From Bugulina stolonifera (Eukaryota; Bryozoa; Gymnolaemata; Cheilostomatida; Bugulidae): DNA of 64,000 bases. Location of the stretch: positions 15,204,158-15,268,157 of the forward strand of contig OW285195.1 of assembly GCA_935421135.1 (NCBI GenBank). Direction: 5' to 3'. This document shows positions 438-22,479 of the stretch, one piece after another (the first letter of the stretch is position 1; each line of letters opens with the position of its first letter). The notes below the pieces were generated by a model. That model saw only the letters and a list, made by a program, of their open reading frames with translations, had not been told where the DNA came from and made no database searches. A program made the position numbers and the translations under genes.

Positions 438-608
438 CTCACTGGTTGTTCAGATAATAAATAAGTTTATCATTGGCTGTTCAGGTTGTAAACAAGTATA
501 TTGTCAGTTGTCCAGGTTGTAAGCAAGTTTCTCATTGGATTTTCAGGTTATAAACAAGTCCATTATTGGTTGCTCAGGTTGTAAACACGTCTATTATTGA
601 TTGTCCAG
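438..608. repeat. 31-bp minisatellite, about 5.5 copies
   Basis: A tandem unit of about 31 bp (CATTGGNTGTTCAGGTTGTA then AACAAGTNTAT) is repeated with mismatches up to the CARD exon. Each unit contains a pyrimidine-CAGGT core that looks like a 3' splice site. The acceptor used by the CARD exon (CCAG|GTGACG at 605-614) lies inside the last unit. Confidence 0.8.
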
Positions 609-3600
609 GTGACGGGTGCCAAGACCTCCCAGATGCAGAGACTGCTGACAGATCTGACCCGGAGAGGTCCAAACGCTTACACTGAGTTCCTGGAATGCCT
701 TCTGGAGACAGAACAGCACCATGTGGTCCACAGGCTACAAGCTATGGAACAGAGTCTAAGGGAGAAGGAGCCTAGGTTCTTCACTCCTATAATGAATGTA
801 AGGGTTATTCTATACATGTCACAAACATCTATACTTTGAGGTGTAGAATTCTGCTACGTTATGAGCAAAAGTACGTTCTGGGCACATATTGTAAAATATT
901 GTGTGTAGTTCCTTATGAGAGGTTGGGTGGAGGTAGTCGGGGGGGGGGGGGGGTAAGGGCTGTTATTCAGAGTTTAATGGTGTTTTTAGTAATCAAAATC
1001 TCTCTGCAGTACTTGTAAAATAGCTTTGGCCTATATAAGCAAGCTTCAATAAAAGTTCATTCATGTACACCTATGTATATACTGTAGTTATGAGCCTACA
1101 TTGTACATACAATAATCTAGAGTAAAATCCTTTTATGAAAGGACTCCATTGCCTAACAACTATTGGACTGGATATGTGATGCCCCATACATTAGGCCTGT
1201 GGTAAACAAACATTGGCAGCTTTAGGCCAGGCATGTGTAAGGGCCAGTCAATGAAATATTTGAGAAAGCCATTGTGCACCTTCCATTGTGATTATTAATT
1301 ATAATAACAGTATTTGGGTACAGACTGTATTGTGAGTCTGTTTTCTTTCAGAGTACAGTTTTCACTTGATAAATTACATAACTATACACTCACTTGATAC
1401 AATGCCCCTCTTATTAGGTATACTGTATCAACTGTGCATGGATAGTAATCACTGAATAGCACTGTAGTGGCAGCGGTCTGCTAGATGTGGGGTGGGGGTA
1501 GTGAAAGGTTGGGTGGGATGTGTTATGATTCACAGTCTATCTGAATCATATTGTATGATTCAGATTAACTCTATCTGGTCTAAAAGACTTTATTAAGATG
1601 TTGGTTATAATAATGTATCTGTGCTAATTGAGAAGCCATGTGATTTGTCTCCCCTTGCAGGTATATAATAATATAATAAAACATGGTGTTGATTTATTCA
1701 AGTTTTGTACACTGACCAGGTTCTGCATGTCATCATTAATACCAGTAATTATAATACCTTACAGTCCACCTCTCTGAGGGAGAATGAAGCATCAAATGGT
1801 TATTGTTCTGCTCCAACTAAACAGCTATCAGATCATCAACCAATCACAGGCCACCATTCAGCACCAGCATCTCATCTGGCCAATCACGGATTACTTAGGT
1901 TTTCTGCAGCACATTCCTCAGCCAGTTGCAGTGGAGACCACACTACACAGACGCATTCATTAGAGAACCGAGGGAACACAACTACAACAAGTCACGATAT
2001 TGTCTCTTTAGAGCAGAGGAAACCTGGTAAACCATTTATTATGATCACTTATTTCATCATTATATATATGTACATTGTAGTACATGTATATAATGATATT
2101 GGTATTTCATGCTGTTTAGTTATAGTATGCGTTGTGTCTGATTTACAGGGAGGGTGGTTTAAATGATAAAACTAGTTGCTGTGCACAATAAATTAGTCTA
2201 TTATGTAGACTACCTATGAATATGGTGTTAGAAAAACATGCGTATAGATAGAGATAAGTTAGTTTAAAGTTATCTCTCTTGTATCTGACCAGTCCGTTTG
2301 AGTGCTGTTGATACCTGACTCACTGACTTATGTGTTATAGCTGCAGCTCTCACTGTAACTCTAATGGACTGCTCCACGTCTAGTTCCACTTCCTCTACCA
2401 ACTCCGTATCCTACAGCAGACCACACGTGTCGTTCACAGCGCCCTCTACAAACACACACGTAGAGACAACTCCACCACATTCTATAGTCAATGGTGGAGC
2501 TAACAGAGACACAGCTAAACGCAACCTGAGTACCTTCTTCAGGTTGGTCTATCTACATCAGCAGTTCAAATTACGTGACTCCTTAGATTGGAGTTATCAC
2601 CCCACACACACGCATATTGAGAAGTTGTCTTCTCTTATGCTGTAAGAAGCTACTGTCATTTGACCTCTACAGTTTGTGTTTGGCATCTACAAAAATGTTA
2701 CCCACAATTCCCTGAGTAACTGCTGCCATTCACTAAGGAGCAGCTGGCTCAGCCAATTGATTTAACTACATGTACAATGTACAAGGTGTAGCCTAGTCAG
2801 TAGGGTGACCCGGTGTGGTACCCCTTGCTTTCTAGGCCCCTCATGCCCTCTATCTCATAGCTATTTAATTTAATAAGAGTCATTTAATTACCCTACTATT
2901 GGCACTTACACTGACTTTATTGGTAAATTGCTTTCATTTCCGTCACGAAACTTACAATAGTAATGAATTAATAGGCATTACATGTCATTGTGACATTGTA
3001 GTAGCAATGTTACCACATTATCTACATATACGTTATGTATTCAGGTGTATATCTATACTGGTAGGTACTGAACTGGTTCCATGTTCTGTTGTACTGTTAC
3101 TTTTCACTGGGTTCACATTCACTTTCCTCTGACAGCATTGCCTGTCATGCTATACAAGGTGTAGTACTGCTTTATGAAGCCATATGTCTTATATTACATT
3201 ATGCTACCAGATGATAGGCCTGTAATATTACTAGTAATAATAACAGTGTTGTGTTACTAGTGTATTGGTGATGTATTGCTAGTACATGTGATTTAGACTT
3301 ACTTACATCTATCTCGTAGCATCTCACATACAGCAAATATGTTCCATGTATTCAGAGGTCCCATTACACAGACAGACAATGGGGACGGGTTGGAGATCCC
3401 CTCAAACTCAGACTGTTCAATGTCACGAGGAATCCAGTCTACAGACCACCCACAAGCAGTCAATATTAACCCCTACCCTAAAGTACTAGGTAATCCTATA
3501 CTTGCTGACATTTTTACATAACACAATGTACATTAATTAGCAGTGCTTGCGTAGCAACTGGGAGTTACTCCCTCTTTGACTACATATAGATGATAAGAGG

Positions 3601-6310
3601 ACAACTCCCAAGATATCTATTGCACTTCATCTACAGGTATAATGTGTGATTGTCATTCACTTTTTCTAATTTCTTTAATTTATTTTTGGTGTGAGAACTG
3701 TCTATAGAAACAGTTGAACTGGATGTAGCTATGCTGTTATTTATTAGGCCCACGTTTCTGTAATAAATGGATTAATGAATACATTGAAAAACTAGATATA
3801 TTACATCTATTATTCAGAACTTGTAAAACAGTAAATAAAAACCGATTGGTTTGTCTCTATTTTGATTTTCTGTGTAAATTCTTATTCTCAATTGTTTTAC
3901 AGGGATGCCCATGACTTCTGGGAGGATGAAGATATCATTGAACACTCACTATACTAGTCAAGTTAGATCTGATTGGAGCTCAATGTACAAGATGACGTCT
4001 AACCCCAGAGGCTACTGTCTCATCATTAACAACAGATACTTCAGTGGTAAGACCTCAGTCTATACTAGTCTGTGAGACCACAGTCTATACTAGACTATAA
4101 GATCACAGTCTATTATACTAGATTGTAAGGTCACAGTCTAATATACTGGGGAGGTCTCGTGTAGGTACTGACTCTATACTGTATCATCTATACTTAACTA
4201 GGTCATCTGAAAGAGAGGCTGGGCACGGACGTGGACAAAGATAATCTGTATAACCTCTTCAGTCAGCTCGGATACCAGATCTGTACACAGGAGAACCTCA
4301 CTGGTATGGTAAGTCCACACCCATGTGTACAGTACAGTTAATCCACACCTGCATGTACAGTACAGTTAGTCCACACCTGCATGTACAGTACAGTTAGTCC
4401 ATACCTGCATGTACAGTCTGGTTAGTCCACACTTTTACCCATTATACGGTGTACATATTATAGTACTACTAATATGTATAGCTGGTGCTATATTATCTCT
4501 ATATGTATTGTTTGTATAGGAAATGCTACTTACACTGAGAGACTTTGCCCAGTTACCTCACCATAAATCAGTAGATAGTTGTGTGGTGGTCCTACTCACC
4601 CATGGACTCGAAGGACAGATCTATGGAACTGATGCTAAACTCATCAACCTATCCGAAGTCTTCAATTTCTTTGATGGAAGTGTCTGCCCTGACTTGCAAG
4701 GAAAGCCCAAGTTCTTCTTAGTTCAGGCCTGTAGGGGAGGTAAGTTGAGGGTGGGGCATCGGTTCACCCGACATATTGATCTGTTGCTGTGCGTTTTTGA
4801 AATACTATGTAAAGCTGTAACTGAGCATATTTAGTACCTTCTACTAATTCCCATAGGAAGGTATCCGTAGGGTCACACAGTTCTGTATTATTGTCATTCT
4901 TGAGGTGTTCGAACAACAATTTGGATGAATAATTCTTAGGGCTTTGTGACGTCCTAACTGTATGCATGCTTACACATTGAGTTAGTGAACAGTGATTCTG
5001 TGAGTTTAGATTGTACATGTAGAGTAGTTACTAAGTTGATATTGGTCACTATATTGTTGGAGTTTTGGCCGGAATGGAATACTAATGCACTAGAAACGAC
5101 CATATCAGTGTATCATCACAGAGTAGTAGTGTTTGACATTACTCCCTAGACTCTCTCTAGGTCATCTGTAGATACACCATTTATTATTACAGAGAATTTT
5201 GATGCTGGATTTGATATGCCCGACAATGGGCAGACGGACACAGCTGCAGTGGGCCCGGCCTCACAGGCTATAACCGAGGTTCACCAGCAATCAGCTCAGG
5301 ATATAAATACTATCAGCAGAAAACTCCCTTCGGGGTCCGACTTTCTCATCGCCTACGCAACAGTACCAGGTACATATGTACTCATAGTTAGTACTAGGTA
5401 CACTGTTAAACTGTATAGGGATGTTTAACTGAAGGTGTGTTATCTAAATTGATGGCTGCAAGTGATTTCACCAATAACCATACACATTGAGACAGTGGAA
5501 CCTTGGCATGTATTTGATTGGTCAATTCCTCCAGCAGTGACTGCTATAATGTAGTGTTAGCTACACTTTCTCACTATGCAAGTAAAGGGTAATGGTGATC
5601 CTGCATATGTATATATTATGGTAATATGGTAATATATTATAGTAATACGGTAATATATTACAGTATTATATGATTACAGGGTTCGTATCGTGGAGAAACT
5701 CTGAGCAGGGTAGCTGGTTCATTCAGGCCATGTGTGAAGTATTCTCTAGACAATATAAACATGAAGATGCCCTCAATATGTTAGTCGAGGTAACGTACCG
5801 CCCTTCTTTGTATTACCTCACTTCCTGTGTAGGTTACCACTTCCTGTTTCACTCACCTTGCTATTCATAGAGTAGACAACTCTAAGCTTGTTAATATATG
5901 CCACACTTATATGAGTCACTTTGTAGTTGGCTCAGTGCATATCTACTGCTTACCACTGAAGTTTCCTTTTAAAGGTGTAGAGCTAATGATTGTGTTCTGT
6001 CCACTGTATTAGGTTCAAAGCACAGACTGGTAGTTTCATAGACTAGGATTAAAGTATGTTGTAATACATGTATTTTGAATAGAAAATGTTATATTAGTAG
6101 AATGCAATAACAATAAAATATTATATTATATTACTTTGTGTTATATTGTATTATATTGTATTGCATTACATTAAATACTACTATATAATCTATTGGCAGG
6201 TAAATAACAAGGTAGCTACTATATATGAATCAGCTACTAAACACAAACAGATGCCTTCCCCTGTGGTGCTACTCAGGAAGAAACTCTTCTTTCTACCATT
6301 GGCTAACTAG
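609..6310 (+). CDS. CARD-domain caspase (initiator-type), 5' partial
   Basis: Exons: 609-797, 1765-2026, 2341-2542, 3320-3489, 3903-4046, 4202-4308, 4520-4739, 5193-5369, 5680-5789, 6200-6310 (TAG). Every junction keeps frame, giving 563 residues from the first visible one. Exon 1 is the C-terminal half of a CARD ([20 protein letters not shown]), so the start and first CARD helices lie upstream of the window. Exons 2-4 are a Ser/Thr-rich, probably disordered linker. The caspase domain starts near [14 protein letters not shown]. It has the S1-pocket Arg region (ERLGTDVD), the catalytic His in LLTHGLEG (about residue 386) and the catalytic Cys in QACRGG (about 429). The small subunit has [12 protein letters not shown] and the canonical [15 protein letters not shown]. 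By family knowledge this is a Cys protease activated by CARD-mediated oligomerisation. All key residues are present, so it is probably active. Which named caspase it matches is not clear. Confidence 0.88.
4310..4430. repeat. 28-bp intronic tandem repeat, about 4 copies
   Basis: The unit CAGTTAGTCCACACCTGCAT plus GTACAGTA repeats about four times in the CARD-caspase intron between the exons ending at 4308 and starting at 4520. Several copies follow directly after the splice donor. Confidence 0.75.
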
Positions 6311-8440: not shown

Positions 8441-10889
8441 TTAAGAATTACTTCCGCGCCGTCTGTGTCCATTGAAACCAGGGAAGAGGTAGAGCTTCCT
8501 GCCATGAGTCAGAGTATCCCAGACTACAGGTAGTTGTCCATCATCCAGTTTCTTCTTTATACAAACTCCTCGCACTAAACGCTGTACCTGAATAGATAGA
8601 AGAGAGAAGACGACTGAACACAAGTGACAAGATATGACATCATGCCATTTATAGGTTGTGGAGCAAAATCTGCCAGCATTATCAACAGCATAAGGAGTGG
8701 AAATGCTAATAAGGAATAAAAGCTTAGTTGGGTCCTAGTGAGCGTTCAACTAAATGAATGTGTGACAGGGGCTGCCATACTTTCCCAAACATGATTTTTA
8801 GAGAGTCAATTTAGTTACAGAAGACCAGAAATAGCTGCAAGTTCACTCTGTACAGTGCGCATATAAAAGTAACATATCTGTGTAAAGAGTAGAGCCTGAA
8901 TGTACTGGATTCTATCAGCCGTGGGTAATGACTGTAATCACAACTACAAGCTCTTACACACATTGATTGAATCTCATCACAAGTCAGTTAGTGATCCTAC
9001 AGGCATATGGACCAATCACTCAAGTATTTATATAGTTCACCTGTTTGAATATCTCGTAGACATCTCTGTGACAAGCATGTTTATACATGGTAGATACTAG
9101 AGCTCTAATCATTAGACATCCGTAGACAGGGTGTCGCTTGGAGATAAACGCTACAATAGAAAGACCCATTGTGGTTTAAAGCGGATATTTTTTCAGCTAA
9201 TTTTGGAGCTTTGGGGGTAGAAAACAGTTGATTTAAAAGTGAAATTTGTGAAAAGCTACGAATTCTATTGATTCAATGCACATGACAATCTCTCATTTAG
9301 CTGCAGAGATGACATCAGTGTTCAAAGTGGAACAAATGAGGTGGGTACACGGTGCATGCAAAATTGAGGTGGGTACACAGTGCATGCAAAATAGAGGTGG
9401 GTACACATCGTATACTCCCGTATAACCACACTTTGAACACTGGATAACATGTTTAAACACACGCAGTGGGAAACACAAGCGATAGCAACTGTAACATAGT
9501 TTCATTTAAACCACATGTACATCTACTGTAGATCCAATCATGCCTGGAAATCAAGCACTTGACTAACTTTACCAAATTCTTTCACAATTTCACTTTCAGG
9601 AACAGCTCAAAGCATGTTATTGTGCATAAATCTGGACTAGGAGCACATATCATCTTATTTACAGACTAATGAGAAAGCCTTTCACTTACACTCAGCGCTG
9701 GCTTTGATCACAAGTAAGTCGTCATAGTTCAGACTTTCCATAGACTCAGCTTCCTGGCGTCGACCAATCTGTGAAGGTGGGGGCTCCACCGTCTCGTACT
9801 TTACCTGCTGTCCAGATTCTACACTTTTATTATTTGGATGTATACCTTTCGGCCCTACATCGATTCTATCTGTAATACATGTACAAGACATTTTCAATAT
9901 TAGAAGAGCGTGTTCTCCATGTGATTATTTCATTTGTATGCCCAAACTATTCGACTAATAGGCTGTCACATCAATAGCTATTATTATTAGACACATGCCA
10001 GTACTCCAAAATTCCCAAACTATGCTAACTGAACGTCTGTATTAACCACAAGTACTTTCCTGCAGCAGCAGGCAATGGTTCGACAACATCTAGTTTATCC
10101 GTAGATGCAACAACTGTCACTAGCAGTAGATATAACAACTAGCAAAAGCTTTACAATGCTGCTAGGACCACGAAAGAAGACTGCAGATACAAGTGATGGT
10201 GAAGGAACATGGAGTTACCTCCACTGCAAGCCTCTATTATGACCACTTTGGGTTTCCCAGACATTCCAGGGAAGTTGATAGGAGTGAGTAGATCAAAGAC
10301 ATGAGTGAGGTTCACCAACTTCATGTCTGCACCAAAGAGACGATTATCTGCTGTTCCATGGCTCATGATCACCAACACGTGACATCCCATATCCTCATGA
10401 ACTTTGTGCTCTACTTCAGCCTTGATAGTAGACAGCATGACCTGAAATAACATAAAACACTAAGTCGTCATTATTTCATGAGAATATAAATTGGATTAGC
10501 ATCACTACACAGTGTTGCATGTAGTACTGCATGGTATATAATTACTCAATATTATGCCCGGTCAGTCTACAGACAAAACTATCTGCCATCACACCTCGAG
10601 ATAATGTTAGTGATTTGCTTGACAGATTTGAGGAACAGCTACCAGAATGTTCTATAAGACCATACATGTAGCATCAATAACATTATTAAATAGAATAGCA
10701 TACATAACCAACAAGTACCTCTGCCTTAAGATCTCTCCTTACTTTCACCTCAAACTTCAACTCCTTCAACATGTCTGCCATATTCTGAACATCAGCCTCT
10801 GACCCTTTTCTACAAATGTCTGGTCGCTCCTCAAAGTTTTCGTTGTTTATTATAAGTGCTCTTCCTCTCTTTCTTGTCATCTTAAATAC
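8441..10889 (-). other. caspase module of the ROCO-caspase gene (five exons)
   Basis: Exons 10889-10719, 10441-10219, 9869-9690, 9150-9041 and 8587-8441. The large subunit begins VFKMTRKRGRALIINNENF, has the S1 Arg region (CRKGSEADVQ), MSHGTADNRLFGADMKL and EACSGG. An inter-subunit linker follows, then the small subunit (DDLLVIKASAE; FISKRHPVYGCLMI; HACHRDVYEIFKQ) and a C-terminus ending LFPGFNGHRRRGSNS. The exon at 9150-9041 is 110 nt with the same phases as exon 5680-5789 of the CARD-caspase, so the two domains are clearly related. The catalytic His and Cys are present. The usual Gln before the Ala-Cys is Glu, the usual Trp in the S-W-R motif is Lys, and GSWFIQ is replaced by YGCLMI. Substrate preference may therefore differ from standard caspases. 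Confidence 0.88.
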
Positions 10890-13800
10890 CTAAATTTTTA
10901 TCGATTGGCTGGTACAATCATTGTATAGCACTCTTAGGAACCCTAAATTTTTGAACTCTTGTGTGGTAACCCAAGAGTGTTGTGGAGGAATTACTACATT
11001 GTCATTTGCTTAAAATGGTATGCTGGAAAAAATCGCTTGCTGCCATGGATTTTCGGAAAAACTGATAAGAGCAGATGGTATTCAAAATGTTGTGATAGTA
11101 CTAGCTGTGAAACTTGTGTGGAAGACAAAGGCAGTTCAGCACTCTAAAAGTAGTCTACCCTGTTGGTATTCAAGAAGAGATAATATATGCCTATCATTCT
11201 CCTACAGGAAGGAAAGAGGCGATGCACACAGAATAGTGCCAAAGCAGATAGCTACATGTAAGTTTACTAGCCAAGTCTAAGGATAAAGACAGAGTACCTT
11301 GTCAGTGTCAGAGAAAACAGAGTACCTTGTCAGTGTCAGAGAAGAGATCTTCAATCCTAGAGTTTGTCACAGGTTTAGCTCTGCTATTCAGTGAAACCAG
11401 ATGATTATTTGCTTCTTCAGGATAAATATTCTCATCATCATCGGAGAAATCACTGAGCTCTTCATCAGTTGAACTAGCTGCTCCTATAGGTCGGGTAGCT
11501 GGCTGATTCCTCTCTGCAGATAGATAAGTTAATTACATGTACATGTATATACTGTATCTTGTTAACAGCGTTCTTCAGCTCTGTTTTAGCACTGAATTGT
11601 AATGTGGTTCTGTGGATTACTATAAAGCATAATAAACTTCTGAATGATCAACTCTGTCTTTTATTGGGTTAGGACTAGAATTAGCTGGTCAATTGGTTGG
11701 AGGACACTGTTAATATCCAGAACTGTATGTGCATGTACATGTATATGAGCATAGCCACCTAACGACGATTACGGAAATAAGTCTTACCAGAAGCGACGAG
11801 TCTTCCTCGTGCTTTCATCTGACTGACGGCATCTTCAAATATCTTTACTTCTGCTTCTGGCAAGGAATCACCTTATTGACCAAAAGTAACTGAATTAACA
11901 AAGTGTAACGGCACATTCTATCTAATTTCCTTGTCTGAATGACTACAAACTAATTCCTATGCTGAAAATCCTGGTCGGTTGGTAACCAAGCCAATATGCA
12001 GGTCATACTAATTCATTTTAACAACAGCTGTATTCCTATTCAGTATGTGTATATTATACAGCATATACATGTACATAGATATACAAATGTACATGTATGT
12101 GTCATTATGCTGTAGAAGTAATGTGACTCACTTACTTGCACAAGGATGCTGAAGTATGGCAAATATCTCCTCCCTCTTGCAGATGAGAGTAGAGGAGGTC
12201 TTGGTTAAAAGAACCTGGTGCCGATAGCGGTGTTGAGAGGTGCTCCATTCAGGGTCAAGGACTTTTTCGGGATGAGGGTTCTGTACCAACAGGCAGTGTG
12301 CACAGTAGGAAACAGTGACAGGCCTACTCGCAGGCCACGCCTCTTTAACATGTCTCAGCGTGTTGTTAGTGATGTCTATGAGCTTCTTCCACATGCCACA
12401 TATATTCCTGGCAGCAGATGAAACGTAGATTGAAGCTTTTCTGGATTTGTAATCATGAACCAGCTGCATATCAAAACCATCAAAATATATCCTTGCTCCA
12501 TTTCTCCTCACAGTCTTCGAGGCAATAGTTGAAGGAAAGAGCTCTAGGAAACCAACTATCATCTGGTAGTACACATATTGTGGCAGTGAGAGCCCTTTGA
12601 ACAGGAGGTCTACTTGAACAATTAGACCTTCATTCGACTCCTCTGGCGTAGTTGAATGTCCAACAGCGAAATAGGGAATTATGAAACCTGCTCTACGAGA
12701 ATCAGCAGTGATTGGTCCATAGAGTAGCTGAAAGGTTGTCAGCAAGGTAATCGCCACCTTCAGATTGTTTTTGCTGGTAAATCCGGTTTCACTTTCTATC
12801 AGATAGACGAGTAGTTCTTTATCCATGACTCCTGTTTCCTTGAATCTGGCAACAAATGAGTCAAAATGCTCTCGCTCCAGGCGCCCTGAATTAGAACTCA
12901 TACGCGCTCTAAAGTTGTCCCGCCTACTTTGCCAAACTCTGTCAACGTCATGGTGATAGAACACACACAGCAACTTGGTGACCTCGGCTATTTTGTGAAA
13001 ATAGAAGGGCTGAAGGAATTCAATGTCCTTATACCACAGGATCTTGCCACAGTCATGCATGTACTGCAAAATGATTGAAATTTGTCGGCGGCTTAACGTG
13101 TGGTCTTTTTTATACAGAGTGGAGAATATCTCGTCAAAAGTGTTGTAGACCGATGGCATTGAGAGAATTAAATCATTCACTTCTTCCCAAAGTTTTGGTA
13201 GCTTTTGGGTAAAGTCTTTGCAAGATACAAACAGATTAGTTTTCAAGCTATCAAACACTGAATAGTGATCTTTTACTCCCACTTCGTATATATCATCTGA
13301 TAGGAAAATGTCTTCCGTCGAATCACAAAATCTTCTTATCTGGCAGAATTGGCCTCCCAGGGTTTTTTCCTCTTGAACAATTTCCTGACACAGCTCATTA
13401 CTCATTTTAATAAATTCAGTTCTTAGTTCGTTGAACTTTTGAACACTGAACTTGTCGTGGTGAGTGAACACTAATTTGGGAGAAACCAAATCAGGATTGG
13501 CAAGGTATAAGTGTGACAAGTAATCGAATGCGCATCTTCTCACAGCTTCTCTCGGAGACGATTCTTTGGAAATATGGTGATATTGCTCCATGCTCACAAC
13601 AAATACTGGTATGCATTTCTTTTTCAAGGTAAGCTGGTATGTGATATGGTAGACCCCTTGTCCTCCCATGTCAATCAGTCGGAGAACCATACCATCAACT
13701 TCGACCTCTTCAACTTTGAACACTTTTGTCGTTTCATCGACATCAGCTTTAGGGTCCCTAATTGTTAAAACTCTTTTTCTGTCAGCACTCTGCAATGTCC

Positions 13801-16800
13801 TAATGAGGCTGGTTTTTCCAGCTGATGATTTCCCAATCACCGCTATAGTAACCATGGGTAAATTGCGTCCTTGACCTTTCTCCAAGTCTACGTAATATTG
13901 AATTATAGCTTCCAGCCTTTGACAGCAAATCTCATATGGAGGTGAAATAATCACCTGAGAATATTCAATATTGAGCAGGCTCTTCAGTGATGTCATTTGT
14001 AGTATTTTAGGATTGAGATGTTTTAAATTCCTGGGACACACAATGTCTAAGACTTCCAATCCCTTCAATTCACAGACAACGGATGGCATGACTGATAATT
14101 TGTTATTTGAAATGTCAAGTTTAACCAGCTGTTGAAGATTTCTTATGCTGAAAACATTAATGAATAAACCAAACTGAGTGATTAAAGCAATATACTTTAA
14201 ATATGGGCTGAATGAAAGCGGTAACTCATAAAGGAAAAGTTGAACCTTCACCATTGCAAGTTTTTTCAACAGAAAAAAGCTTCAAGGAAACATAAAAACT
14301 CTGTGGTAGCGATCATTGCGTCAAATGACCACATTTAGTTCAAAGTGTCTATTTTGCTATCCGGTATGCTGATCAAGGTCGGCCTATATGTTATTAATTG
14401 ATATTCACTAATTATTATAGGTTAATTCAGTTAGTGACTAACAGGATTGCCAAAAAATATTACTGAATTGGATAGCTACTGAAAATTCAAAACTTTCACT
14501 AAGTCCTCCTATAGCTATTATAACAAGTCACTTTGAGCTACATTTACATTTTTATATGTCCTATTACCAATTGTACAACACTGGGTCTTGTTTTGTGGTG
14601 CTCATGGGTGGACGCATAACTTCAGCTTCAGCTTTTCAATCTGTTTCACAAGTTTATTATTGGGATTTTGAAACTTGAATTTTCTGCATACGCAATGCTG
14701 CCTCCCATATACAGGGTGCAGCAGCTGTACTACATTATAATGTGTATATACATTGTAAGTACATGTATGTGTATTTTCCTGCTCATACTTGACCCCATAA
14801 AAATTATATAAACCCCATAAAGGCTATTCAGTAAAGCTCCATCTGCACTATTAATGTTTCGGGGAAGTGTCGTGATACAAACCAGCTACACTTCAGTTGT
14901 AACCATAGCCTACTGCCATAATACCTTAATATTGTGGTGAGAAGGATATTTCTCATTGACATTGTAATCAGTATGTAATTGTCTATAATTGTATAACTGT
15001 CTTATATTTGTTGTATCTCATTAATAATTACCTGTAAATGTATCTTAAATGCATGGTTTTACAAGGCCGAGTGCCCTTTATATACATGTACATGTACATG
15101 TAGTTCTGCTTTTATATCTAATGTATATACAGTATTGTGTGCCTTTTTCTGTATGTGACCGACCTTAAGAGATCCGACTTCGTCCTTATTATTAGTATTG
15201 CATAATAGCGGTCGCACTTTTACCGTAAGTTACCAGAAATGTAAAAATAATGTATAAAAGGCGAACGCATTTTTGTATTGAATCAGTTTTTACTTGGAGC
15301 TCAATGAAGACCCATCTACTATGGAGAATCTATTTGGAGTTGTCTTTTCTTAAATATTGTAGCATACTTCCAGCCTAAGTCTTTCAAGACTAAAAGCCCG
15401 AAGCCCTAAACTAGTATAGATAAAACTCATGTTAGCTCTAATTACAATTAGTAACAGCTCAGACCTATGGCTCACAGTACAAGCACAATCAACAAGGCTA
15501 TCACTGTTCAGTGTAATATGTAATTAGGAACTAGGTTCAATAGCTCACTCTTGAACCATTCCCGTACTCATACCGCAGTACCCGTACACCTAAAACATCA
15601 CAATAATTATATCATCAGGTACATATAGACCTTTAGAGAAGTCATTATTTGATATGTTCAGAGTTTGCAGATTCCTCAGCTGATTTATACTACAATGTAC
15701 ATGTACATGTAGGTATAGCTATTATCAATACCGTACACTGGGTTTCATTCGCGTGATTTAAATTTAACGTTTTAACGAGTGGGTCGAACTCGTTAAAATA
15801 TGATTCGTATTACTAAACTATTAATTAAACATATTCACGTGTTGTTTTCATTAGCTGAGTAGCGATACACAACTAGTAAAGTATTACCACAGTTGATTAT
15901 TATTATTACATAGGCCGATGCTTAGACTCGTTAAAGAGTCAAGGGTCGACGTAGGTCCGATGGTTTATGCTTCTAAAAGTGTAAAAAGTCTAAGTGTTGA
16001 TGTGAGGACGTAGGCCCGATGCTTAGGCTCATTGAAGAGTCAAGGATAGACTAAGGTCCGATGTTTATATTCATCAAGAGTGTGGTAAGAGTCTTGTACG
16101 AGTATGAGGACGAGCTCGGGCGCTAAAGGTCCAAAGGGACCAAGGCTGGAGCTGCTTGCCTGCAAAAGTAAGACTCTGAAGGGTTGAGTTAAGAGATGTT
16201 GCTTTATTAGAGAGCAATCAATAATTGACTAGCATAAGAAAATGTTCTTGCTTTTATACTAAATCAGTTTCCGGTAAAGTTCTGGTGAAAAACCCGATAA
16301 GGTATCGGGTGGGGACGATAAGGTATCGGCCCCGGAAATTGCATAACAATATGGCTGTAAAGTGCTCGAGGTTTGACCTTAAAAGAGTCGGCCATTGGCA
16401 AAAAGAGCTGAAAATCATGTGGCAGATATTATATGTAAAACAGGCATAATCTGAGACATCGGCCATTATTTATAATAGGCAAAAGACTTAAAATAGTTAA
16501 TACAATAATATCCACTTGCTATTCCAAAACAAAACTTGCTATGTTACGGCACGTTTTATACAAGACCCAAGTTCACATAATGAATAGGGAGTTAGCTACT
16601 TTGGGTACAACACAACTAGCAGTGAAGCCTCGCAGAAACAAACAAGGTGTTTCAGTCAAAGATTTATTAGTAGTAGTGAAATATTCAGGCCAAAATTACA
16701 CAATGTCATAGATACCTCCTTGGGAGAGTAGTCAGTTTACATCCAGAAATGTTCAATTCTCTCAATGATGTCATAGAAGATGTGAATATATCATCAGGTA

Positions 16801-19800
16801 GACCTTTAGAGAAGTTATTTTCTGATATGCACAGAGTTTGTAGATACCTCAGCTGATTTACACTACAATGTAAATGTAGGTATAGCTATTATCAATATAA
16901 ATATATATATTATTAGTCTGTAACATTCCACAATGTATTCTACTCTGTAGTGATAATATATTGGATGCAATGAGGAACCTATAATATAGCCTGGTCTCCT
17001 TAAACACTCTAAAACACAACTGGTAGTCTTGTAATATTTTTATGTGAGAAGCAAGAGCACAAACTCCCCCTGTAACTAGGTAAATAATTAATTAGGTAAA
17101 ACATTGGTAGCTGTAAAGCCTTGAAACTAAAAACAAATAATTTTTTAGAGTCAATTATTGAAGCCTGCAGTAGTGGTATTTAGTATCAGGCTAAAATCAC
17201 ACAATGTCATAGATACCTCCTTGGGAGAGTAGTCAGTTTACATCCATAAATGCTCAATTCTCTCAATGATGTCATAGAAGATGTGAATATATCATCAGGT
17301 AGACCTTTAGAGAAGTCATTGTTTGATATGTACAGAGTTTGTAGATTCCTCAGCTGATATATACTACAATGTACATGTAGGTACAGCCATTATCAATATA
17401 AATATATATATTATTAGTCTGTAGCATTGCATTCCACTCTGTAGTGATAATATATTGGATGCAATGAGGAACCTATGATATAGCCTGGTTTCTTTAAACA
17501 CTCCAAAACACAACTGGTAGTCTTGTAATATTTTTATGTGAGAAGCGAGAGCACAACTCCCCCTGTAACTAGGATGTATATAATTAATTAGGTAAAACAT
17601 TGGTAGCTGTAAAGCCTTGAAACTAAAAACAAATAATTTTTTGGAGTCAATTACAGAAGCCTACAGTTGTAGTGGTATTTAGTATCAGGCCAAAATTACA
17701 CAATGATATAGATACCTCCTTGGGAAAGTAGTCAGTTTACATCTAGAGATGTTCAACTCTCTCAATGATGTTATAGAGGATGTGAATATATCATCAGGTA
17801 GACCTTTAGAGAAGTCATTACTTGATATGCGCAGACTTTGTAGATTCCTCAGCTGATATATACTACAATGTACATGTAGGTATAGCTATTATCAATATAA
17901 ATATATATATTATTACTCTCTTTCTCAGTATAGTAAACAAGCATAACTCGGGATCTCATGGGTCGTCTTTGGTAGTTCTTTGACTACTGACTCCGATTAA
18001 TCTTTCATGTAATGAGAAGGCCTAGCACCACTCATAGGCACTTCACTTTGGACTCTGGAGTCGTCTTAGGACGACCATACCAGAAACCAAAAACCATTAC
18101 AATATATTGGATGCAATGAGGAACCTATGATATAGCCTGGTTTCCTTTAACACTCCAAAGCACAACTGGTAGTCTTGTAATATTTTTATGTGAGAAGCAA
18201 GGGCACAAACTCCCCTGTAACTAGGTATATAATTAATTAGGTAAAACATTGGTAGCTGTAAAGCCTTGAAACTAAAAACAAATAATTTTTTGCAGTCAAT
18301 ATTATTGAAGCCTGCAGTAGTGGTATTTAGTATCAGGCTAAAATTGCACAATGTCATAGATACCTTTTAGGGAGAGTAGTTAGTTTAGACATAGAGATGT
18401 TCAACTCTCTCAAGGACGTCATAGATGTGAATATATCATCAGGTAGACCTTTAGAGAAGTCATTGTCTGATATGTTCAGAGTTTGTAGATTCCTCAGCTG
18501 ATTTATACTACAATGTAAATGTTGGTATAGTTATTATCAATATAAATATATATATTATTAGTCTGTAACATTCCACAATGTATTCTACTCAGTAGTGATA
18601 CTATATTGGATGCAATGAGGAACCTATGATATAGCCTGGTTTCCTTAAACACTCCAAAACACAGCTGGTAGTCTTGTAATATTTTTATGTGAGAAGCAAG
18701 GGCACAAACTCCCCCTGTAACTAAGATGTATATAATTAGTTAGGTAAAACATTGGTAGCTGTAAAGCCTTGAAACTAAAAACAAATAATTTTTTGCAGTC
18801 AATTATTGAAGCCTGCAGTAGTGGTATTTAGTATCAGGCTAAAATCACACAATGTCATAGATACCTCCTTGGGAGAGTAGTCAGTTCACACCAAAAGATA
18901 TTCAACACTCTCAATGATGCCATAGAAGATGTGAATATATCATCAGGTAGACCTTTAGAGAAGTCATTCCTTGATATGTCCAGAGTTTGTAGATTCCTCA
19001 GCTGATTTACACTACAATGTAAATGTTGGTATAGTTATTATCAATATAAATATATATTATTAGTCTGTAACATTCCACAATGTATTCCACTCTGTAGTGA
19101 TAATATATTGGATGCAATGAGGAACCTATGATATAGCCTGGTCTCCTTAAACACTCCAAAACACAACTGGCAGTCTTGTAATATTTTTATGTGAGAAGCA
19201 AGAGCACAAACTCCCCCTGTAACTACATGTAGGTAAATAATTAATTAGGTAAAACATTGGTAGCTGTAAAGCCTTGAAACTAAAAACAAATAATTTTTTA
19301 GAGTCAATTATTAAAACCTGCAGTAGTGGTAAAATACCAGGCAAATTCACACAATGATATACAAATGTACATGTAGATACCTCCTTGGGAGAGTAGTCAG
19401 TTTACATCTAGAGATATTCAGCTCTCTCAACGATGTCATAGAAGATGTGAATATATCATCAGGTAGACCTTTAGAGAAGTCATTGTCTGATAAGTACAGA
19501 GTTTGTAGATTCTTCAGCTGATTTATACTACAATGTACATGTAGGTATAGCTATTATCAATATAAATATATATATTAGTAGTCTGTAACATTCCACAATG
19601 TATTCCACTCTATTAGTGATAATAATATATTGGATGCAATGAGGAAGCTATGCTGCAACCTAAAACATGGTACTTTGTATTTCTTGGCCAAGCTCCACTA
19701 CAGCAATAGCATTATATGTTATCAATACTGCAAGATATCGAGATATCGAGTATACTACAGTATCATGTACATGTAGGTGCTGGGATGTCTGTAAACTGAA

Positions 19801-22479
19801 TTACCTCCTACAGGTAGCACTTGAAATCTGGTCAATAGACAGGGAACTCAAATAGAGATGTGTGAGCTGTGGAAACAGAGAGTCTATATCCCGTATGATG
19901 CTGCCTTCTAGTGAGAGATGTGTGACTGTATGATGTGCCACTTCACTTAACAGCTCGTTCAGGGTGTAACGTTTTCTCTCCGAGTATCCCCAGTACTTTT
20001 CTGGTTCTTTCATACCGCTATGTCTGAAGTTGACCTCATATACTTCTGCAACAAATTGAAATTATGTATGCATTATGTAATAGACATCCTGTGAATTACC
20101 TAAGTTATATTAGTGTGATGGTTACATTGTTTGTGGAGTTTGAACCCAGGCTTTACAGCACTTAGGCTAAAGTGGCAGACACATAAATCACTAGCTCACC
20201 ATATGGGCCATTTTCACCTAGGTGAAACCAAGTCAGTCCTTGGCTGCCCATAAATAAAATTTCCTTGCTACAGAAAAACATGCAGCATAAAAGTGCCCAA
20301 ATTTCTCTATAAAACTACTACCATTACACTAACAAGAGTTAGGCCCCGGCAGAGTGTCCACTACATACTGTGGTCATTTCAGACAATCTGATGCGTGATG
20401 CATGTATCTGCATGTACATGTAAATGAGGTACATCAGTATTAGTAATTTTATAACTAGTTGAAACTGTATTTGAAACAAGGCCAAAACTGGTTTATTGTG
20501 TGTTTTTAGAATTAAGCATCAGTCATAATTCTTACACCACAATTTTCCGCTGGATCTACAGGGCTGACCTATTTGTATCGGCCCCTCGGGTCTTCATATT
20601 ATGCCCTAGTCATCCAGTTCCCAATGCTATATCAGACCTTGAGTATCATGTGGGTAAATAATGTAGGCCGATGGCCCGTCAGCACCCAGCCCCCCCCCTC
20701 CCCCCCAGCTGCATCGGGAAGTTCTTTTAGTACATGTATAAGGAATGAGATCTTCTGTATTGGGTCAGTTGTGCTAGAGTAGTTATTTAGCTCACACCTG
20801 TGCAAAAGTGAATAATAGACAGCACACCCGGACCTATTGGCCGCAAGACAGGGTTGATAGATTGGTCATCGGGCTTTACTCAGTGTGTATAACGTAGAGA
20901 AGACAATAACCACTCTCTCCCTCTTAACAGTGCATACACGTCATCTGTATTCATGACTACACGACAGAATATAATATTATATAGTATTGCTATGGCCTTA
21001 GGAATGAGTTCAACGCAACTCAAATCAGTAAATAAATAAAAGTATTATCAGTGTCCAGCACCATCGATTGTGTGAGCCAAAACAATATTTTGATGGTAGT
21101 TGTGATTTATCACCATAGGGCCAATATGGCCACCATAGGGCCAATATGGCCACCATAGGGCCAATATGGCCACCATAGGGCCAATATGGCCACCATAGGG
21201 CCAATATGGCACTGTTTACTTTCTGTGGTGCAACTTTCACATTCACTTACTACCACAATTCCTCTATAACTCCCAAGGTTATCTATACGATAGCATAGCA
21301 GCCATGATATTGATGTAGGTAGCTAGGTAGCTGAGGTGCAGCCGTACAACATACATGTACAGGCCAGAGTACAAGAGAGGGCATAAACATGTATTTTCTG
21401 TACAGAACTTTCAGTATTAACATTGACATAATTCCGCCCATTGAATGCATATAATATGATGTTGTGGATGTCTGCATGTTTGAACAGCCACTCCTTGTAC
21501 TTATAATCAGCACAACTCCATACACATGTAGCTCTGGTGTATAATTTACATCTGATTAAATAAAATGATGTCAACTGCTCAAAAGTATAATTAATGTTAA
21601 CTACAACGTATGATGATTTACTATTTCTTTTATATAGTAAAAAGGCAACAATTACCACTCAACCTTTTAACCGAGGCGGACAAGGTAACAAAGGTTGTTC
21701 AAAAAATATGTATAATATACTATATTGTGTATAATATTTACAATGTATACATGTAATACTACATTTTGTATTATGTATATATGTCGTTCGCCTATCACAG
21801 ATTGTAATCTCCAATATCAGACTGCAGTAAGTGTTCGGATGACCTTGCGGTCGTTGACATGATAAATGTTTTGGAGGGTTACCCGCATAGTCCATCTATA
21901 ACACAGGTAACCCCACTTGCCTGAAGATTTATCAGCTCTATTTGCGTGTGTTATAAAAATGTGCACTAGTTGCGCGCAAAGATTAATTTTAATACTAAGT
22001 AAACCTGCTGCTGTTGTTGACATTAATATTGCATTCAAATGAAGTTTTCAAATACCGAGTAATGGATTTGTGAAGAGTTACTTAAACGATTTGTTCCCTA
22101 AACAATCTGACTGTAATCTAAAGCAATCAAACTAGTTTTACGGCATGTTCTTCGAGAATTTCCCAGTAGGTGTTTGGCAAATATAACATATGTTACAACT
22201 AATGGCAGCTATCGTATTAATATGTGACTTTTGTTTTAATTTATGCGATGAATATGTGACATTCAATAATCCGATATTATTTTTTATTATTTATTTCATC
22301 TCATAATTGTAAATGTCTTCTCCTCTATGGCGCTGTAGCCGAAAACCCCTTAGACTTATCGAGAATTCTACAAGCGAAAACTACTATTTGTTTTGTCACT
22401 AAAAGGAACATTTAAATGTAGCACTCATACCTTCTCCACGTCCTCCATGGTCTCCCATTTTACTGCCCCCTTCACCCAT
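8441..22479 (-). CDS. LRR-Roc-COR-caspase fusion protein (ROCO-caspase), predicted 1427 aa
   Basis: Sixteen exons, read on the minus strand: 22479-22431, 20045-19805, 19527-19381, 19011-18865, 18507-18364, 17862-17716, 17363-17217, 16862-16716, 14147-12136, 11871-11788, 11513-11326, 10889-10719, 10441-10219, 9869-9690, 9150-9041, 8587-8441. All 15 junctions are GT/AG and phase-compatible, totalling 4284 nt (1428 codons with stop). Layout: N-terminus (MGEGGSKMGDHGGRGE), LRRs to about residue 450, Roc with P-loop GKSSAGKTS (495-503), DMGGQ (549-553) and THHD (618-621), COR to about 1055, acidic linker 1061-1151, then caspase with SHG (His1236) and EACSGG (Cys1280). Inferred role: an intracellular sensor whose GTPase-driven dimerisation controls its own caspase. 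The first exon is the least certain. A two-gene alternative would have the ROCO protein read through to the TGA just past 12136. Confidence 0.8.
9339..9410. repeat. 26-bp tandem repeat, about 3 copies, in an intron
   Basis: The unit AGGTGGGTACACNGTGCATG plus CAAAAT is repeated about three times (the last copy partial), in the ROCO-caspase intron between exons 9869-9690 and 9150-9041. Confidence 0.75.
11290..11345. repeat. 28-bp direct duplication containing a splice donor
   Basis: Two adjacent near-identical 28-bp copies of ACAGAGTACCTTGTCAGTGT plus CAGAGAAA. On the minus strand each holds a donor AAG|GTACT. The donor after 11326 is the one that keeps frame with the caspase exon at 10889. 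Use of the second donor would add 28 nt and shift the frame. Confidence 0.8.
12136..14147 (-). other. single large exon encoding the last LRRs, Roc and COR
   Basis: A 2012-nt exon. Its start (CAG|C ATA AGA AAT) has the same phase and the same opening residues (I-x-x-L) as the upstream LRR exons. It opens with LRRs (RNLQQLVKLDISNNKLSVMP; ELKGLEVLDI). Roc follows: AVIGKSSAGKTSLIRTLQ is the P-loop, RLIDMGGQG a G3-like motif, and KLVFTHHDKF fits the Roc G4-like THxD. The remaining ~400 residues fit the COR dimerisation domain by position and length. There is no kinase domain, unlike LRRK proteins. The exon leaves one base (A) that joins GT of the exon at 11871 to give Ser. Reading through the donor meets TGA two codons later. 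Confidence 0.85.
15619..15689 (-). pseudogene. truncated LRR exon, probably dead
   Basis: It begins like the six intact LRR exons (T|ATA AAT CAG CTG AGG AAT CTG) and encodes INQLRNLQTLNISNNDFSKG. It then departs from the family where the second LRR should be and reaches TAG. No donor with the required phase is visible. It lies next to an LTR-like insertion that probably removed the rest. The functional transcript should skip it, joining 16716 to 14147 in frame. Confidence 0.65.
15724..16590 (-). mobile_element. LTR-like element, family B, diverged copy
   Basis: It interrupts the repeat-like intron sequence after TAGGTATAGCTATTATCAATA. It shares blocks with the copies at 34014-34991 and 41830-42645: a CGTAGGCCGATGC block with CTCATTGAAGAGTC, GATGTTGCTTTATTAGAG, ATATACTAAATCAGTTTCCGG-like text and a GATAAGGTATCGG block. 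On the minus strand it carries an AATAAAGC signal. Boundaries are approximate. Confidence 0.6.
16716..19527 (-). repeat. tandem array of six LRR exons in ~500-bp units
   Basis: Exons 19527-19381, 19011-18865, 18507-18364, 17862-17716, 17363-17217 and 16862-16716 are each 147 nt, except the third at 144. Each reads 1+3n+2 in phase and encodes about two LRRs (NQLRNLQTLNISNNDFSKGL; PDDIFTSSMTSLRELNIS; CKLTTLPRS). The introns are also near-identical, including ATAAATATATATATTATTAG and CACAACTGGTAGTCTTGTAA. The repeat spacing is about 500 bp (645 where an LTR fragment intervenes). All six are open, so the array can change LRR number without breaking frame. Lineage-specific amplification is inferred. 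Confidence 0.9.
17916..18101 (+). mobile_element. LTR fragment (family A, U5 end) inside the LRR array
   Basis: Matches the 3' end of the family-A LTR found complete elsewhere: CTCTCTTTCTCAGTATAGTA, then GGCCTAGCACCACTCATAGG, ending AAAAACCATTACA. It is truncated on the left and replaces about 60 bp of the intron unit between exons 17862-17716 and 18507-18364. Confidence 0.8.
20115..20240 (-). mobile_element. tRNA-derived SINE-like sequence
   Basis: On the minus strand it has a B-box-like CTGGGTTCAAACTCC and, upstream, TGGTGAGCTAGTGATTTATG as a degenerate A box. No complete tRNA cloverleaf can be built. It lies in the first large intron of the ROCO-caspase gene, close to its second exon. Confidence 0.45.
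21111..21210. repeat. 20-bp repeat, five exact copies
   Basis: Five perfect tandem copies of CACCATAGGGCCAATATGGC in the first intron of the ROCO-caspase gene. The Trp/Pro/Tyr-rich open frame across it on the minus strand is an artefact of the repeat. Lack of drift suggests recent expansion. Confidence 0.95.

Follow-up and report, generated by a model that had tools for sequence, protein, structure and literature searches.

The window analyzed here, a 64-kb stretch of the Bugulina stolonifera assembly tzBugStol2.1 (C9:15204158-15268157; genome note, PMC10213821), carries on its minus strand a gene of 16 exons that runs from position 22479 to position 8441 and is open over 1,422 codons without a stop. 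Judging from its sequence, this gene very probably encodes a single polypeptide in which a leucine-rich repeat (LRR) array, the Roc and COR domains of a ROCO protein, an acidic linker and a caspase follow one another, and it belongs to a large family of bryozoan receptor-caspases. The first-pass annotation had observed an LRR-ROCO protein joined in frame to a C-terminal caspase on the minus strand, and this observation is confirmed: sequence and structure prediction agree on the order and frame of the parts, the catalytic residues, the predicted Roc-COR fold and the recurrence of the arrangement in paralogues and in two other bryozoans. Animal sensors usually reach caspases via CARD, PYD or DED adaptors.

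The switch region lies in exon 9 (12136..14147, minus strand, as are all exons given below), which encodes the last LRRs, Roc, COR-A and COR-B and ends on a phase-1 donor. All three Roc motifs, GKSSAGKTS (P-loop), DMGGQ and THHD, are present in the protein. A Roc domain with P-loop and G3/G4 motifs and a COR domain immediately after it are the marks of a ROCO protein, and by prediction the window protein is one. Domain searches of the predicted protein, which had been suggested as a check, returned Pfam Peptidase_C14 (5.7e-39), COR-A (0.0061) and Roc (8.4e-5, below the curated cut-off, with a fold match found too). The predicted fold matches LRRK2 and CtRoco as far as the end of COR-B. Neither NACHT nor NB-ARC was found when the full model was scanned with Pfam at E 0.01, Roc-COR standing in that position, and the same scan found no CARD, PYD or DED.

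Throughout the genome, ROCO and caspase sequences occur together. The window Roc-COR protein, used as a query, identified 73 genome places, which merge into 63 segments. A Peptidase_C14 match lies at most 8 kb downstream on the same strand in 57 of these, at a median distance of 2.1 kb, whereas none of the 63 has such a match upstream and a single one has it downstream on the opposite strand; the chance for a random place to have such a downstream match is 0.0015. The caspase list used for this count was obtained by removing most first-exon and short C-terminal rows by hand from 139, so the count can only err on the low side. The six caspase-less segments comprise three fragments (C11:3170580, C4:2611674 and C9:15021037), the 5' part of an apparently split gene (C1:11555043), whose other part at 11564272 is linked to a caspase, and two long ROCO exons (C10:1160647 and C9:15967349).

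The best 20 of the 63 loci, the window included, were compared in detail. The p20 exons lie in order 3' of COR in all 20; exon 14 was unmatched in L032 and L035 and weakly matched in L033, and the p10 exons were unmatched in L025 and L027, where the sequence stretch ends soon after. By our reading of the junctions, a phase-1 donor follows COR in every locus, and past the COR match the frame stays open for only 1 to 42 codons. A phase-0 acceptor stands directly before the caspase start, V-F/Y-x-M, in 19 loci, the exception being L036. Between these borders lies the linker, formed in the window gene by exon 10 (11788..11856; 69 bp, symmetrical phase 1-1, with a weak match in L018 and a similar stretch in the Watersipora subatra protein P0066), which encodes its first part, and exon 11 (11326..11513), which encodes the acidic sequence EELSDFSDDDE...LFSDTDK. 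The acidic linker was detected at E 0.01 in 16 of the 20 loci, 15 of which have an AG acceptor before it; this is a weak test since AG is common, and the one locus without it is that of the window, whose acceptor falls within the queried codon.

The two halves and the linker also evolve as parts of one unit. The ratio of nonsynonymous to synonymous substitution rates (dN/dS), calculated, like the distances below, with stop codons in broken copies skipped or written as X, is 0.15-0.32 for Roc-COR in 12 of 13 paralogue pairs (the remaining one being saturated) and 0.12-0.44 for the caspase in 13 pairs, with 0.12 for the window copy and its closest paralogue. For the linker it is 0.23-0.62 in 11 of 12 pairs and 1.01 in the twelfth (45 codons, few changes). 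By these sequence comparisons, linker, Roc-COR and caspase are all under purifying selection. Roc-COR and caspase distances over the 20 loci are correlated (r 0.92), a value that none of 10,000 permutations reached. The proximity of ROCO and caspase is, on these data, not a chance neighborhood, and the halves are inherited as a unit.

The same order was found in related genomes, where the first-pass annotation had advised looking for it. Eleven proteins of W. subatra (P0002-P0007 and P0064-P0068) and one of Bugula neritina (P0042) were compared with the window model, and in all 12 a Roc-COR match is followed by a caspase match; P0006 and P0007 begin within Roc, and P0042 is without the caspase start and ends early. 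Pfam detects Peptidase_C14 in each of the 12; in nine it also detects Roc with E no higher than 0.01, mostly under the cut-off. NCBI labels four of the W. subatra proteins as MFHAS1-like or as an MFHAS1 homologue. The window linker matches P0066 (E 1e-6), P0042 (2e-4) and P0064 (8e-4) in this 12-protein comparison. In a tree of 27 rows, midpoint-rooted for drawing only, one well-supported side consists of seven of the eight Watersipora rows, and the other side holds the Bugulina rows, P0042 and the long-branched P0002. The simplest reading of these sequences is that the join predates the divergence of the two genera, with the copies multiplying separately afterwards. Named ROCO-caspases in the protein searches, which rely on shared 5-residue words and may miss distant relatives, came from W. 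subatra and B. neritina only. One such search gave 55 matches, 53 of them nameless and mostly open reading frames ending near the end of COR; many extend shortly beyond the same Pro-Cys motif and then stop, as would be expected if a gene finder for bacteria had been run over a spliced exon. The single proteins of two other bryozoans, the common donor phase, the linker, the purifying selection and the correlated halves strongly support the single polypeptide proposed at first. As a separate observation, P0002 has six fibronectin type III stretches after its caspase and, judged by eye, a hydrophobic, membrane-anchor-like end, and may be a chimeric gene model.

By its sequence, the C-terminal domain is a metazoan caspase (C14A), with a His-Cys dyad, p20 and p10 regions and the Arg residues. 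Exon 12 (10719..10889) encodes the caspase start VFKMTRKRGRALIINN and the p20 Arg (RKGSEAD), exon 13 (10219..10441) the catalytic His (MSHG) and Cys (EACSG), exon 14 (9690..9869) the intersubunit loop and the start of p10 (NYDDLLVIKAS), exon 15 (9041..9150) further p10 sequence (FISKRHPVYGCLMIRALV), and exon 16 (8441..8587) the end of p10 (RKLYLFPGF) and the stop codon. The catalytic His and the p20 Arg are present in all 20 loci and the Cys in 19. The closest solved structures by sequence are CED-3 (2.4e-23), then an ancestral effector caspase and caspase-1 (3.3e-22), and the p10 Arg in ISKRH aligns with YVSWRN of CED-3; this residue and the p20 Arg (RKGS) presumably line the S1 pocket. Because the full-length fold of P0003, predicted with six sequences, had a mean predicted local distance difference test score (pLDDT) of 54.8 and was left unused for fold searches, the caspase fold was assessed from sequence alone. 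The idea that the caspase cleaves itself at a conserved Asp in the loop between its subunits was considered and rejected: the loops differ among loci, and in several of them no Asp precedes the p10 strand (two of the 20 loops were not located and one was partly read). Given the lack of a conserved Asp in the loop, dimerization-type, initiator-style activation seems likelier than cleavage from upstream.

At the other end of the protein, exon 2 (19805..20045) encodes an N-terminal cap preceding the LRRs; it matches 32 genome places, itself counted, as well as P0005 (E 4e-6) and P0064 (E 2.5e-4). The tentative exon 1 (22431..22479) encodes 16 residues from an ATG start codon, plus one base (MGEGGSK...), with a GT donor and a fitting phase. 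N-terminal myristoylation was considered for this start and for those of the W. subatra proteins P0004 (MGCSLS) and P0064 (MGAKSS), and is not claimed: in five paralogues, ~3.5-kb stretches taken at and upstream of exon 2 yielded no MGxxxS/T exon with a usual donor, exon 2 itself being recognized by motif in just two of the five. Intron 1 contains a short minisatellite (21111-21208) with a unit of ~20 bp (CCATATTGGCCCTATGGTGG) in at least four copies, counted by eye.

The LRR array of the window gene consists of six exons, five of 147 bp (19381..19527, which encodes two LRRs, 18865..19011, 17716..17862, 17217..17363 and 16716..16862) and one, the third, of 144 bp (18364..18507). All are phase 2-2, so that any number can be joined in frame. 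The window array and those of L037, L038 and L039 together contain 47 LRR exons of this phase; the exon finder accepts phase 2-2 only, yet it recovered 10 of 10 and 13 of 13 separately searched LRR matches in L037 and L038. The 18 LRR exons of L039 lie within 7.2 kb before C9:10792015. The ROCO at C9:8877730, which has a broken frame, is preceded by at least 53 LRR-exon matches, C9:8750267 by at least 24 and C9:8680987 by at least 13; these are matches with E no higher than 1e-8 among the 150 candidates scored of 276, and they include partial ones and ones with stops in the aligned stretch. Tandem LRR-exon arrays with a spacing near 395 or 659 bp occur in L037, L038, L039 and C9:8812084-8856870, and in L037 a four-exon block is duplicated as a unit. 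A degenerate seventh LRR exon with a stop, perhaps a spent cassette, lies at 15590-15718 on the minus strand of the window. Further away, on the plus strand (585-6310), a conventional caspase gene heads towards the ROCO-caspase, with a CARD fragment at 585-839 (Pfam 2.1e-6), a p20 with QACRG at 4520-4834 (Pfam 8.9e-20) and a p10-like region at 5646-5870.

Variation within the arrays was compared between ten positions that we take, from the LRR consensus, to form the ligand face and all other positions; the Fisher values and the ratios of nonsynonymous to synonymous differences (pN/pS) here and below count pairs of related exons as independent. In L037 (10 exons) pN/pS is 3.60 on the ligand face and 0.08 elsewhere (Fisher test for variable codons, 4e-5), in L039 (18 exons) it is 3.35 and 0.78 (0.001), and introns stand at 0.04-0.06 in this comparison. 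Sequence variation thus gives a strong signal of ligand-face selection in these two arrays and does not show it in that of the window. A receptor-caspase devoted to colony life rather than to defense, acting in allorecognition or in the regular breakdown of polypides, would agree with the colonial habit of the animal and with cassette-like LRR variation, which also suits self/non-self recognition; we think this role unlikely, the lineage-wise expansion and ligand-face diversity suiting defense equally.

Several observations weigh against the main reading. Exon 1 is tentative, and no exon like it was found in a scan of five paralogues; the linker went undetected at E 0.01 in four of the 20 loci; and the stretch that separates COR from the caspase contains a single polyadenylation-like AATAAA, at 11665, two more occurring 0.6 and 1.3 kb beyond the caspase stop. 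The ROCO frame is broken in L034, and in L025 Ser replaces the catalytic Cys. The p10 motif GSW is lost in the window copy (GCL), and the Q of QACxG beside the catalytic Cys is changed to E in seven of the 20 loci, the window among them. In L038 (13 exons), pN/pS is 1.71 on the ligand face and 0.33 elsewhere with a Fisher value of 0.13, and in the window array (five of the six exons, the 144-bp one omitted) the ratios are 0.74 and 0.79, although variable codons of the window array are concentrated on the ligand face (Fisher 0.013), where pN is 0.24 as compared to 0.05 in the rest, ~five times as high.

An LRR-ROCO gene with a caspase gene beside it, copied as a pair in tandem but not spliced into a single mRNA, would agree with the AATAAA between the halves, with a COR frame that reaches a stop shortly past the donor, and with the caspase start V-F-x-M, which provides an ATG near that point. 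We nevertheless consider such a pair very improbable in view of the donor, phase 1 in all 20 loci, and the acceptor directly before the caspase, phase 0 in 19, the purifying selection on the linker in 11 of 12 pairs, and the single proteins of W. subatra and B. neritina; the Met of V-F-x-M also counts against it, since we take it to be part of the usual caspase Y-x-M start. Decay of most copies, with a functionless window copy among them, is highly unlikely: an open frame of 1,422 codons and a caspase dN/dS of 0.12 against the closest paralogue speak for a maintained window gene, whereas L025, L034, several fragments in the genome and the degenerate LRR exon at 15689 are what decay would leave. 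Finally, the joined protein might carry a caspase that is no killer but regulatory or of altered specificity, with, for example, a cytokine-like or matrix substrate. The loss of GSW and the Q-to-E change imply that substrate choice may differ from that of ordinary caspases, caspase-1 is among the closest solved structures, and the intersubunit loop has no conserved Asp; the retained His (20/20), Cys (19/20) and p20 Arg (20/20), the purifying selection on the caspase and the first rank of CED-3 among solved structures make this alternative rather less than probable, if one to be reckoned with.

In LRRK1 and LRRK2, the C-terminal place is held by a kinase, and in the bryozoan receptor-caspase it is the caspase that occupies this place. 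NLR inflammasomes and Apaf-1, with caspase-1 and caspase-9, combine an LRR or other repeat sensor, a nucleoside triphosphatase (NTPase) switch and caspase activation by proximity. The bryozoan protein has the same working plan, but Roc-COR replaces NACHT or NB-ARC, no CARD or PYD was found by Pfam, and the protease is on the same chain. The earlier description as an inflammasome without adaptors fits this one-chain anatomy; its working mode we infer. MFHAS1 has a similarly simple LRR-Roc-COR core (PMC6337361, a review that, in the part consulted, groups Roco proteins as LRR-only, kinase and death-domain) but is without a catalytic effector, whereas the bryozoan protein continues with linker and caspase. 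Placozoan ROCO domain names include CARD and TIR (PMC4104024, in part), which likewise ties animal ROCOs to death or immune-type domains; those proteins have a recruitment domain or TIR where the bryozoan one has a protease.

The closest parallel in domain order is bacterial. LRR-AP-GTPase(ROCO)-COR proteins of bacteria have at least 24 C-terminal domains, caspase among them, and can occur in multiple copies per genome, and the order of LRR, Roc, COR and C-terminal effector is common to both groups (PMC8195603, in part). In contrast to these, the bryozoan caspase is metazoan-type, intron-split and the sole effector in the copies seen, and the LRRs are encoded by exon cassettes. The initial statement that no animal protein with this order had been described holds for the literature searched (titles, abstract openings and parts of cited papers), in which no animal ROCO-caspase was found; the order itself is in print for bacteria, and uncharacterized database proteins of two bryozoans have it. 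Titles and abstract openings likewise gave no account of bryozoan receptors of this kind. To a specialist, the bryozoan lineage and the arrangement would come as a surprise. Up to forty animal ROCO domain combinations are presented in a figure of PMC11378527, in whose main text the word caspase is absent, although such a combination could be present in the figure. In brown algae, LRR-ROCO genes put forward as immune receptors have tandem phase-2 LRR exons whose concave-face positions are under positive selection, and three of these genes encode a peptidase of a different family (IPR009003) at the C terminus (PMC11378527, in part). Tandem LRR exons of one phase are shared with the bryozoan arrays, whereas the algal exons are 72 bp long with one LRR each and no caspase is named. 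Because brown algae are a distant lineage, the two cassette designs are probably convergent.

We propose that the LRRs would bind a microbial, self or damage ligand, and that binding would shift the Roc nucleotide state and the COR dimer, as in other ROCO proteins. From what is known of the family, these would set the distance between two chains, so that two C-terminal caspases could meet and, with no need of CARD or DED adaptors, be activated by induced proximity. The outcome might be cell death or the cutting of a precursor. The bryozoan repertoire may even form an immune or allorecognition system, a possibility we put forward tentatively: ~60 loci of adaptor-free receptor-caspases, of which some have phase-2 LRR cassettes by the dozen, interchangeable and in frame however they are combined, the ligand face varied by duplication and diversifying selection, perhaps also by alternative splicing or somatic recombination, and the caspase on the same chain.

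The bryozoan cassettes repeat the brown algal design, itself proposed to be a route to receptor diversity in those algae, and the family is an animal counterpart of the bacterial LRR-ROCO effectors. Its proteins offer a direct test of whether control by the Roc-COR dimer can turn on a caspase. With sensor, GTPase switch and protease on one chain, in dozens of genes, the bryozoan protein looks, from its sequence, like a self-contained danger sensor that may be able to kill its own cell.
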